Assembly: GCF_030704535.1 (NCBI RefSeq)
Contig: NC_081810.1
Coordinates: forward strand, 4,249,501 to 4,313,500
DNA length: 64,000 bases
Reading direction: 5' to 3'
From: Vitis vinifera
Taxonomy: Eukaryota > Streptophyta > Magnoliopsida > Vitales > Vitaceae
This document shows positions 22,289-55,396 of this stretch, piece by piece; position 1 is the first letter of the stretch; each line of letters opens with the position of its first letter. The notes below the pieces were generated by a model. The model did not search any database and was not told the DNA's origin. It saw only the letters and a list, made by a program, of their open reading frames with translations. Position numbers and translations under genes: made by a program.

Positions 22289-25200
22289 ATGGTTCAGATC
22301 AAGGAATTGTATCCTTTTTCCTATGCAAATTTGTTCTCTCTGTGAATGTCTCTGAGCTGCTAATTTATTTTATTTTATTTGTTTTGTATATAGTCCGTTT
22401 GGTTGCTGAGAAAACGGAGGAATATAAAAAAGAGAAATGAAATTTTGTTGGTTTTCTAAAAATGGAAAGCACGTTTTGTTATGAAAAATCTGAGACTGAA
22501 ATTTTATTTTATTTGATTTTCTATCATTTTCCTGTATTTTCTCACCAACCAATAGTGAATTGCTCAAAATTGTTGTTCTACCATATTCTATAGTTCAACA
22601 GTTGTTTTTGCTCTGTTTCAGCTGGAACATAGAACCCACCAACAGAGTTGGCGAATCATTTCTGTATTTTCAAAATTCATACGGGTCTTCTTCATAAAAA
22701 ATTGAACGCGTCAATTGGATTTCAGCAAATATCCAGTAATTACCAAATCTCAGATTATTCCCAGCATCCCAGTTAGATAATTTTTTATAGCAATCTTTAG
22801 ATATTAAAATACTCTGTTTTAAGGAATTATAGAGAAACTGGTATGCCTCTTATTCTTGTATGAATCTTTTTTCGTTTCTATGCTTGGGTTTCTTTAACTT
22901 AAATTTCCTTTGTGGGGATTTCTACCAAGTCGAATAGTCATGCCTATGTCGTTAGAAGAGGTAAACGAAGTTAATGAGTTATGATTTGATTACCCATCAT
23001 CTTTAAATTGAAGAATTTGGAGTTGTCTGCTAAACTATTTCTTGAATTGCAGTATCAAATAGCTCAAATGTACATGGTTCTAAAAATGCAACAGCAGACT
23101 ACCACAAGTGATGAAGGGGTAGAGGTCTTGGAGAACAGATCTTTTCAAGATGATGCATTGGGAAAGGGACAGTACACATCAAAAGTTTATCGTCTTCAAA
23201 GGTAATGTGATTGTTGCTGGACATAATAAATTTGTGGAGTTTAGTTGTTGTTTACAAAATTGGCACTGTATAATTGCACCTCTGATGTTATCTTCCTTGG
23301 GCTTGGAAAATAACAAGATTTGCTTGAAAATTGACCTTATGCCTTTCAACAGTTCACAGAATTAAAAATGTAGAGGCTTGAACTGAATATTTGTACCCAA
23401 GTAACATACGTTTATTCTCGTGTGTGTCTTTCTCAAATGTGGCAAATTGGCCTCCTTGAAAACCACAGGGAACAGACTATACCCAAAAAAGAAGAAAGCA
23501 ACTGAGCAATGCCTACTTTGCTTATCAGAGACTAATTAGGGGAGAGGGCTTTGTATGGTTTTCTGCTTTCAAAATTTTAGTGTGTTAACTCTCTACCCCG
23601 TCAGTTGCTCCCTTGTGATTTTCAATTCATTTCAAGAATGTTTTTCTTTCTATTTCTTCATCTTTTATGTTTTGGTTGTGTTTTTTTTTTGTCTGTTTAT
23701 TTTTTCCATTTGAAATATATTGTTACTTGATTCATTTATCATTGGCATTCATTAGGTTGTAATTGTTTTTTATTGAATTTTTGCAGCAAAGTTCCTGCTT
23801 GGCTTACTACTTTTGCACCTGCAGATGCTCTCACCATGCAAGAGGAAGCATGGAATGCATACCCAAGGTGCAAAACAGGTTTGCCATGTTAACATGATTT
23901 CACACTTGGCTTGATATGTTTCATCGGGAACTTCTATTAATATATTTTTTGGTTGTTTTCTGAAATTGGATGTCTTATTCCCAGTAATCAAGGTAATTAT
24001 TTTCTTTTTTCAATTTCAAATCTTCTATTTTCTGAATACTCTTTGCAAAGTTTCAGTTTATAGTAAATCAAACACTTCCTTGATTCTGCATTTGTGCAGT
24101 GCCCATACTTTAACAAGTTCTGTTTAGCCATTGACACTGTTCATAAAGCTGACAATGGACAGTCAGAAAATGTAAGTTGCTTCGAAATTTCTCTTTTTAT
24201 TTTTTATTTTCACTCAAATTCATAGCCTTAAATTGGCATTTAATTATTCAATTATGATTATATTCTACCTTTTCTTTTTAATTGGTTTTTTGAGGGCACC
24301 TAACTGAAAAGTCGACAATCTAGGTGCATGGTCTAAACAAAAAACAACTAGCAGCAAGGCAGGTAGAAGTTATTGATATAGCTTCAGCTGCAAGAGACTA
24401 TTGGAGTTATGTAGTTGGAGGAAATAGTGTGGATTTCTCCAAATTCAGATCAGCAAAAACTGGGCGTGGTCCACTTTTGGAAGGATGGCAGGTTGGAATC
24501 TACCATAACAGTAACCTTATCATCTTTTTATATAAAATTATGGATTCATGTAGTTTATAATCATGGAAACAATCCTGGTGTAGTGCATGATTTTCTAAGT
24601 GACATGGTCTTGCTCTATTTTTTCTCCTTTTCCTCTTGTTCATTCTTTCTCTATCATTTTATTTTTGTTTATTGGCATTCCTTTTGTGGGAATCCTGCAT
24701 TAGATCTCTATTGTAGCATTCTCCTTCAAAGAAACTGTTATCCATATCACTTGAAATATATGGATAATAAGTGTGTACAATAAATATACAAATAAAGTAA
24801 AGTAAATAAAAATTTGAAACTCACAACTAAGGTTGATCGAGGTTAGAGTTTGACTCTATGTTTTTAAGACAAATTTGTCTCACTTAGCTGCCTACGGTTT
24901 ATTGACAATTATCTCCCAGGATGCAACAATCACTTTCTTGTGATAGTAGCACTTCAAATCACAATAAACAGCGAATCACTTGGTGATTTGTATTCTCTTG
25001 AATACCAAATATCTGGTAGAAAAGAGAAATGACTAGACTTAAAGCTAAGGAGGACTTAAATGTTTTAAATGACAAGAAAGGAGAAAGAGTGGAGAGAATG
25101 GATGAATGAATGAATGAGAAATGTCAGGGGGGGGGGGGGGGGGGGTTCCTATTTATAGATTTATTGGTGACTTTAGGAGAGATGTCTTTTTAAAATACTA

Positions 25201-53265: not shown

Positions 53266-55396
53266 ATGGGGTAACAACTTTCGAATTTCTCGCATTTCCT
53301 TGGATCATACGTTCAAGTCTTCTTATGTCGACGTCTAGAAATTTAGGGATTCTCGGCCTTTTAGAATTTACTTCTTGTTAAAGTTTTACGATTGAAATCA
53401 AAGTTTGCTAACTTTTATTGCTTGCCTTTTCTTTTCTTCGGTATCGAAAGATGAAAGAGAAACTCTTTATAGGTTTTGATGTGAGGTTGAGGTTTTCTTG
53501 CTATATGAATGAAAATAAATTCGAAAGAAAGAGAAAGAGAGTCACCCGGTAAATTAGTGGAATGTAGCTCTGAGCAGTATGAAAATTAGAATTTCTTGGC
53601 GAGAATGTAGAGAATTTCTAGGCTTTGTTTCGATAGAATGGAAAATGCTGAAATTCGTTCCTCAAACTGTTTTAAGAGTTTTCCATTTTTGTCTATCTTT
53701 CTAAGATCTAAACAGAGCCTCACTTTTTCCGGGGAAAATCAAAGGGGGGACAATGGATGAAAATATAAATGAACAAATCAAATGGCTGAAACCCAAGATT
53801 CTAGATGGATCACTTTTGAGGTGGGTTAGCTGGTATGGCTAGGAAAGTAGCTGTGGAAATTCAGTTGAGAGCAGTCATATGCGAATTCACATGTATTATG
53901 ATTTCGGGACTTCGTAAGACATGCTTATGCACACTAGTCATGGGTAGGTACTTCTTTTTTTAGCAGCTTTGATATATGGGATTGGCTTTGGTGGTGCAAT
54001 TGAATGCTTATCTGCACAGGTTATTTGCTATTAGCTGGGGAGAACCATACTAATGGATAGATTGTAAATTACACGAATTTTCCTGTTCATGGGACCTTCT
54101 AAGCTCTTTGGGGTAGTCTTTGTATGGCTGGTGATTCCGGGATTATTCTGTTCTGAGTTGTTACTCAGGTACTTATTCATGTAATATGAAGGTACCGCAT
54201 GTTGTAATGATTTGATTGTAGAATTATGAAGTTCTTGGATCTATCCAAAAAAAAAAAAAAGGAATTATGAAGTTATTGGCAATGAGAAACTGTTGACAAG
54301 CTTATAATATTTCTCAAATAACTTTCCAACTTCTGCAATGATGAGAAAAGGCAAAAAGAAATTGATTTATGACCTTATAGGAACTGACCATTTTGAAGCT
54401 CCCGGTGAAGCAGCCAACAGTGTCCCTTTATTTTTTCCCTATGTTCTAGTTTGATTAATTGCATATTTGGAATTGTGCATTACAAATGACTTTTGATTAA
54501 TTGCATTTCTGGACTTCTGCATTGAAAATTACTTTTTTCTGGTATTTATATCTGACATTATCTCTGGACCCTCCTTAAGTACAAACCATACTTGCTGTTA
54601 ATTCTCAAATCTAAATTTCATCAGGGGTCATATATTCTTCACTTTGAACTATCAATTTTCTTGCTTAAAATTCATTTTTTTAACAGCAAATAGATAGAGA
54701 CCTTTCTTAAATTTATGCATTACCTTTTCCATTATAAGTGAACGAATTTGTAATATGCTGGGAAATTTTGTCCAGGAAGACACGTGGAATGGGAGCTGGT
54801 CGCAAGCTGAAGTCCCACCGTATAAGGCAAAGGTGGGCTGACAAGGCATATAAGAAGTCCAACCTTGGCAATGAATGGAAGAAACCATTTGCTGGGTCCT
54901 CCCATGCAAAGGGCATTGTTCTTGAGAAAATGTGAGGCAAAATCCATCCATGCTTTTGCTTTTGTTCCTTTAAATATCACAAGACATAACAATGTTGTTT
55001 GTCTGGCTGAATTCTACAGTGGTATAGAGGCAAAACAGCCAAACTCTGCTATTAGAAAATGTGCTCGTGTTCAGCTGATTAAGAATGGGAAGAAGATTGC
55101 TGCCTTTGTACCAAATGATGGTTGCTTAAATTATATTGAAGAAAATGTAAGTATTTTCAAGGGGAAAAAAAGGTTTACTGATACCTCTAGGTTTTTCAAT
55201 TCCCTAAACTCTTCCAGATGTTTGTTTTCTTACACTTCATCTGGTTGCTTTGTAGGATGAGGTGCTGATAGCAGGATTTGGTCGTAAGGGGCATGCTGTT
55301 GGAGATATTCCCGGTGTCAGATTCAAGGTTGTGAAGGTATCCGGTGTGTCTCTTTTGGCTCTCTTCAAAGAGAAGAAGGAGAAGCCAAGGTCCTAA
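53266..55396 (+). CDS. RPS23: Cytosolic 40S ribosomal protein uS12 (S23)
   Basis: Decoding-centre protein of the small cytosolic ribosomal subunit. Exons: 53266-53270 (only ATGGG), 54776-54931, 55020-55146, 55256-55396; all GT-AG, 142 aa, the exact plant length. The protein reads [17 protein letters not shown] through to KEKKEKPRS. The universal uS12 loop KQPNSAIRK is at 59-67; Pro61 corresponds to the proline that is hydroxylated in other eukaryotes, which I infer from the family only. Intron 1 is 1.5 kb and sits after five coding bases, a common design in plant ribosomal-protein genes. The lone 5-nt coding piece of exon 1 is supported by the exact start MGKTRG. The promoter carries site II and telo-box elements. 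Confidence 0.98.
53619..53718 (+). repeat. Diverged fold-back module in RPS23 intron 1
   Basis: The left end GGCTTTGTTTCGATAGAATG is mirrored by TCTAAACAGAGCC at the right end. The right end AAACAGAGCC is the same as that following the right arm of the second ICR module. The stem is short and weak, so assignment to the same family is tentative. Confidence 0.5.

Follow-up and report, generated by a model that had tools for sequence, protein, structure and literature searches.

We analysed a stretch of 64,000 nucleotides of Vitis vinifera (contig NC_081810.1, positions 4,249,501 to 4,313,500; here called the window and numbered from its first letter), in which a 17-base sequence, TTTGGTTGCTGAGAAAA, that we call the arm, recurs in the introns of several genes, in some of them facing an inverted partner. 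These arms are probably the terminal inverted repeats (TIRs) of very old, decayed, short non-autonomous DNA transposons similar to miniature inverted-repeat transposable elements (MITEs). A preliminary description of the window had offered a MITE family as one of two readings, and this has largely held, given that the genome contains thousands of arms, that the fold-backs have conserved ends and variable interiors, and that a TTA or TAA trinucleotide (TWA) lies at the expected boundary. As we envisage it, complete copies would be fold-backs of about 70–350 bp with common ends and differing interiors, whose ends were presumably bound by a transposase; this would have inserted them at TTA/TAA targets, with a preference for transcribed 5′ gene regions or their vicinity. 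Copies in exons would have been purged, leaving survivors often in early introns; many copies would since have lost one end, and some may have been copied in tandem, together with their intron as in an ICR-like gene of the window, or with an exon-like stretch as in an array on C2.

The arm in the genome and in the window

The home assembly (495.6 Mb, 21 contigs) contains 561 exact 17-mers against 0 for a reversed control pattern, and 6,694 arms with up to two mismatches against 149 for the same control, in line with the high copy number of MITEs. A Poisson estimate that assumes uniform decay puts the total at about 20,000 arms with 22% divergence (some 3.7 changes per 17 bases). The 21-mer TGTTTGGTTGCTGAGAAAATG had no match in plant-free genome and viral contig collections, as expected there. 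Within the window, searched at up to 3 mismatches in 17, there are 8 arm matches where 0.81 are expected, and none of 100 shuffles attained 8. A profile, derived from the same 8 arms that it also scores, returned 15 sites above 14 bits, these 8 included, against a mean of 0.8 in Markov sequences, and it contributed, besides a few weak sites, two extra ICR right arms (26.6 and 19.8 bits). The sites considered here are the following:

22396..22555, + strand: complete fold-back in intron 1 of the PITP gene (left arm 22396-22424, right arm 22527-22555)
28820..28848, + strand: solo sense arm, 52 bp past the donor at 28768, with TTTGGTTTCTGAGAAAA at 28822-28838
36918..36946, + strand: solo arm, antisense to the tetraspanin gene (− strand) in whose intron (37902-35996) it lies
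45332..45464, + strand: fold-back 1 in the intron of the ICR-like gene (left arm at 45332, right arm 45436-45464)
45554..45687, + strand: fold-back 2 in the same intron (right arm 45659-45687), with TAA at the expected offset before the left arm
45781..45930, + strand: fold-back 3 in the same intron (right arm 45902-45930), with TAA at the expected offset before the left arm
53710..53719, + strand: AAACAGAGCC, the proposed diverged copy within RPS23 intron 1 (from 53271 on), at chance level
12739..12767, + strand: weak arm-like site, possibly an old remnant (17.7 bits; the top of 30 Markov sequences reached 18.6)

The arms that the preliminary description had placed in PITP intron 1, after a donor at 28767 and, three times, in the ICR intron were all located. 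In the PITP gene, the exact 17-mer lies at 22398-22414 and its inverted partner, with 2 mismatches, at 22537-22553, inside an intron read by eye as 22309-22929, so that the donor at 22309 is 87 bp 5′ of the arm. The ICR left arms (17-mers at 45334, 45556, and 45783, with 3, 2, and 1 mismatches, respectively) each have a right arm, which goes beyond the earlier claim and means that this intron holds three fold-backs, in tandem at a spacing of 222 and 227 bp, the first of them 69 bp downstream of the donor at 45263. For the arm at 28820..28848, a right-arm partner was looked for in the window and not found; we assume that the gene in which this arm and the donor at 28768 lie is the one whose tRNA-endonuclease exon is at 32740-33579. 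The tetraspanin arm, reported at 36913, is present as an exact 17-mer at 36920-36936, but it is antisense to its gene and 954 bp away from the donor at 37902. As for the diverged copy claimed in RPS23 intron 1, AAACAGAGCC does occur there, but the best arm-like stretches of this intron reach only 13 of 21 matches, which is chance level, given that shuffled arms average 11–12 matches in 300-base windows of other loci. Pfam identifies three of the host genes, with tRNA intron endonuclease, tetraspanin, and ribosomal S12/S23 domains, whereas the ICR exon gave no match in the Pfam scan, and the PITP and ICR names are those that we take the peptides to indicate.

Anatomy and boundary of the copies

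Exact arms were sampled from the first 100 of the 561 places (C1 to part of C4), among which 33 belong to one tandem array on C2 and 4 in a tandem-copy stretch (C2:17499690-17609075) were left out, leaving 63. Loci L005, a duplicate of L004, and L048, which represents the array, were excluded from arm counts; the tandem copies L060, L062, and L032 were excluded from the copy alignment and from the TWA, strand-mismatch, and duplication analyses, with L061 also excluded from the last; and the 63-arm strand sample retains these tandem copies (L061 as antisense; L032, L060, and L062 as unclear). Loci L065–L084 were picked for a nearby GTAAG and served only for TWA, pairing, and BLAST, never for sense or donor counts.

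An inverted partner (at least 15 of 21 matches, 40–420 bp off) accompanies 17 of the 41 sense and 8 of the 11 antisense exact arms, against a chance rate of 0.6%. When 32 copies with both ends were aligned (4 from the window and 28 from the loci), the ends were conserved and the interiors variable, and the copies span 69–348 bp, the short size and TIR structure of a MITE. The sequence shared at each end is YCTGTTTGGTTGCTGAGAAAATGnAGGAAA. For L065 and L074, used as test copies, the similarity to other loci extends over 22–60 nt around the arm, with 26–44 nt in 17 of the 20 matches. Some copies carry a central inverted motif, read by eye, a 27-base form of which occurs at 19 places genome-wide (up to 3 mismatches; control 0); at 15 of the 16 new places, which were read, the arms are mostly decayed or chance-like. 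Among five tandem gene copies, divergence was 0.118 for the right arm, 0.122 for the downstream flank, 0.142 for the upstream flank, and 0.058 for the interior; the right arm diverges as its downstream flank does and therefore shows no visible constraint, on 17 sites only.

The predicted RNA folding of complete copies in the window gave z scores of −2.4 for PITP (22400-22549) and −1.2, −4.4, and −2.0 for ICR fold-backs 1–3, and that of the solo stretches was +1.0 at 28820, with no excess folding, and −1.3 at 36918; a 150-nt stretch of L004, which does not contain the two arms together, gave −0.1. An Rfam scan of the window, as a test for a structured intronic RNA family, returned no match at gathering thresholds.

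At the boundary of the copies, among 162 arms with up to three mismatches, 34 have TTA or TAA exactly at −10 to −8 before TTTGG, 7 nt outside it, against a background of 5.3% (p = 5e-12, with the arms not all independent and the offset chosen after a scan). In that first scan, of 135 arms at 27 offsets, −10 was a single peak with 28 arms, the runner-up having 12 and the expectation being 7.1. The 34 are split into 17 TTA and 17 TAA, the equal counts predicted of a target read from both ends, and the flanking of a TIR by TTA/TAA that is characteristic of PIF/Harbinger elements is thus present as a preference.

Some copies lie in larger repeats. The C2 array extends for about 15 kb (C2:10282948-10297722, or 10.283–10.298 Mb), and its unit, as read in the first 2 kb (L048), has a 215-bp period; in it, an ATG-started, exon-like stretch (MVKKKSADF) is joined by a GTAAAT donor-like site and, about 75 bp past that site, by one arm. 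What has been multiplied in this array is an exon together with a piece of intron; a kinship with the ICR array was considered and dropped on account of this unit. Loci L009 and L031 share a larger arm-containing repeat, with 85–90% identity in blocks of 149, 595, and 127 nt, and L009 also has a MULE transposase frame at 6817-7320. Several same-strand arms lie within a few hundred bases of each other, partly as short tandem repeats, in L012, L025, L033, L041, and L063.

Strand and position of the arms in genes

Strands were called by a 4-mer classifier trained on six window genes, which placed 53 of 59 held-out chunks correctly. By these calls, 41 exact arms are sense, 11 antisense, and 11 unclear (n = 63, p = 3.6e-5), and T-skew alone gives 29 sense against 11 antisense, with 23 within the threshold (p = 0.006). 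After setting five strands by hand and removing three tandem copies (L032, L060, and L062), the exact arms stand at 38 sense and 14 antisense, and arms with 1–4 mismatches stand at 42 and 29. In twenty 9-kb loci, the gene strand read from frames gives 11 sense against 2 antisense arms, with 7 unassigned, L017 among them as a possible third antisense case (p = 0.022); these strands were assigned with the arm strand in view, and 7 of the 13 pass the Pfam cut-off (6 sense, 1 antisense). It is the solo arms that drive the bias, given that they are 24 sense against 3 antisense, as compared with 17 against 8 for complete copies, both derived from the 41:11 calls.

Donor sites are in excess just upstream of the arms, often those of first exons and without a fixed spacing. 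For the 41 sense arms, the donors pointing toward the arm at up to 300 bp outnumber reverse ones by 29:10 at a scoring threshold of 7, by 46:22 at 6, and by 14:6 at 8, and beyond 300 bp the ratio is 13:14 (threshold 7), with the reservation that the strand classifier draws on the same flanks, so that the donor excess is not fully independent of it. The 11 antisense arms showed no difference between donors toward and away from the arm. A strict threshold, applied to 47 arms over 350 bp, gave 11 donors toward and 5 away. Genome-wide, GTAAG occurs 28 times at 12–42 bp before an arm and its mirror CTTAC 13 times (two-sided p = 0.028); the 28 include one site of the C2 array and two near-copies on C12, and the 13 include two identical copies.

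A regular occurrence of the arm 50–100 bp after the first-intron donor had been put forward, and in the window a donor lies at such a distance for the PITP gene (87 bp), the gene at 28768 (52 bp), and the ICR-like gene (69 bp), but not for the tetraspanin gene (954 bp). By hand reading, donors lie 15–87 bp upstream of most paired copies and 35–190 bp upstream of solo arms; over this whole range of 15–190 bp, and with a scored excess spanning 0–300 bp, a single regular distance had to be given up, the spacing being broad.

With regard to first introns, one frame was scanned with Pfam in each of the twenty 9-kb loci, and in seven it passed the cut-off for a cellular gene (L012, L013, L014, L018, L022, L027, and L028). 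In L012, L014, L018, and L022, the arm precedes the matched frame on its 5′ side, likely in a first or 5′-untranslated-region intron, and in L028 it comes just past an N-terminal exon; it is in intron 2 of the ribosomal L17-like gene of L013, by eye, and in an internal intron of the ABC transporter gene of L027. L009 adjoins the MULE frame and L011 a LINE frame, and in the remaining 11 loci the one frame scanned gave no match above the cut-off. By eye, an ATG-started exon ends at a donor just upstream of the arm in at least 8 of the 63 loci (L006, L016, L019, L023, L042, L051, L055, and L057), and the arm sits in a later intron in L013, L026, L027, L050, and L058. A preference for first introns is suggested by the sampled loci, where the first-intron status was partly read by eye, but it is not proven genome-wide, and later introns and neighbours of transposable elements also host arms.

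Kinship, alternative readings, and meaning of the family

The nearest known relatives in design are the Tourist or PIF/Harbinger elements, such as Medicago MtPH-A6; these have TIRs of the form G(N)5GTT and TTA/TAA duplications, as PMC2213677 describes, with GGGTCCGTTTGGTTCGAGARTT as the TIR of a Medicago family. Alike are the TWA next to the TIR, the GTTTGGTT core at an equal distance, the GAGAR stretch just inside, and the nature of short non-coding fold-backs near genes. Unlike them, the arm family shows strong interior divergence and a sense-strand bias, besides the three points that follow. First, the GTT is correctly placed, but the terminal G is not conserved, being the first base in only 6 of the 34 TWA copies (C in 13, T in 11, A in 4). 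Second, target duplication is weakly seen, with z = 1.4 for 3 bp and z = 2.8 for 5 bp at the TWA offset in 55 pairs, out of 90 combinations of offset and length tried, and with TTA on both sides in 2 of the 55 only (L024 and L035). Third, no transposase is linked to the arm ends; the genome has at least 151 matches to PF13359 (DDE_Tnp_4, Harbinger-type), several of them stop-free across the domain, with flanks as yet unread. All three weigh against our reading of the arms as decayed MITE ends, as do two others, namely that a plant MITE survey (PMC12550479) ranks promoters and downstream regions above introns, so that preferring introns would be atypical, and that a symmetric decaying element predicts arms at 1:1, where we find 41 against 11. 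The TWA target and the spacing fit and the G and the duplication do not fully, so that we regard the family as working like a Tourist-type MITE, with its membership unproven. Among the cut-and-paste transposons of grapevine, the hAT and Mutator groups are the most prevalent (PMC2528002); these are TIR elements too, but the arm family differs from them in its TWA boundary and in having no 8–9 bp duplication resolved at any one offset.

As a contrast to the arm family, the window has at 42649-43250 an element of about 590 bp with the appearance of an ordinary Tourist-like MITE, in which nested inverted repeats with outer 44-nt arms, 91% complementary, end as TAA|GGTGGTGTTTG... and ...CAAACACCGCC|TAA, that is, G(N)5GTT with TAA on both sides. 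A fold-back without the arm, a 56-nt inverted repeat with 93% complementarity and 39 nt between its halves, lies at 39145-39295. In the gene starting near 28768, a 139-nt direct repeat (96%) at 29497 and 32112 and a 100-nt inverted repeat (98%) at 29630 and 32685, which together occupy 29497-29729, 32112-32250 and 32685-32784, are possibly a younger mobile element. A 118-nt direct repeat (98%) has its copies 5.6 kb apart, at 22725-22842 in PITP intron 1 and at 28331-28448 upstream of the next gene.

The sense bias may stem from avoidance of acceptor-like antisense arms or from retention of sense arms. The former, in its pure form, makes the bias a matter of negative selection only, and we consider it possible, if rather unlikely, and compatible with a decayed MITE family. 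An antisense arm reads TTTTCTCAG, which resembles a 3′ splice site, and would be lost or altered by mutation, though less readily if it pairs with a fold-back partner; as this predicts, the partner is kept more often by antisense than by sense arms (8 of 11 against 17 of 41; p = 0.09 for the difference), and two positions outside the AG, 7 and 10 of the arm, carry changes more often when the arm is antisense (0.41 and 0.38) than when it is sense (0.21 for both). In contrast, the AG positions of arms with 1–4 mismatches show no such excess of changes in antisense arms (0.17 for both, n = 29; sense 0.24 and 0.29, n = 42).

Retention of sense arms would amount to an exapted 5′-intron element: selection would preserve the sense copy of an old transposon end near the donor for a role in the nascent RNA or as a promoter element downstream of the start, and we find this unlikely. 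The sense bias of exact arms, by classifier and by T-skew, and above all that of solo arms, points this way and is the only hint of the regulatory element that the preliminary description had considered. Of 15 central-motif loci, 5 have a sense-left arm (at least 15 of 21) and 2 a right arm, which is not significant, with the strand taken by sign alone and two of the five scoring only 15, a score attained by shuffles at two loci. Against this element, the donor distance is not fixed, and internal introns and the neighbourhood of transposable elements contain arms as well. Signals of intron-mediated enhancement, such as TTNGATYTG in Arabidopsis, share the promoter-proximal intron location (PMC6760150), but TTNGATYTG occurs on neither strand of six stretches of the window, and the arm family consists of inverted repeats with transposon-like ends. 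It is similarly improbable that the TIR of an extinct transposon, after reaching the early introns of very many genes, has been retained genome-wide as a solo sense arm past the donor, a strand-dependent 5′-intron signal, while its fold-back partner decayed.

Two further readings are very improbable. Introner elements, which bring their own splice sites, would agree with intron location near donors, but it is scarcely credible that the copies are such elements, since the donors lie outside the fold-back, 52–87 bp upstream in three window genes, and several host introns are in conserved genes (ribosomal S23 and L17-like; others by eye). That the family was built by eye from the chance similarity of AT-rich introns, as short arms, low G+C, and the weak RPS23 case might suggest, is refuted by genome counts far in excess of the reversed control and by the window shuffles.

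In the open-licence literature in PMC, we found no match describing the family in the passages returned, and it may be named in Repbase or grapevine libraries, which lie outside that literature. The passages on plant MITEs and grapevine introns describe neither the family nor a strand bias, and papers containing 13-base pieces of the arm include none on transposons by title and one on simple sequence repeat markers. Published surveys place plant MITEs near genes, more in promoters and downstream regions than in introns (PMC12550479, PMC12595863), and repeats without a name have been described from the large introns of grapevine (PMC3058033).

In summary, MITEs near genes are common, and it is the strand bias that is unexpected for a symmetric element. 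If the bias is true, an old family of several thousand arms lets the question of whether a transposon end became an intron signal, or was filtered by splicing, be tested; and if it is ordinary, the family explains a recurrent intron string that may be mistaken for a conserved motif.

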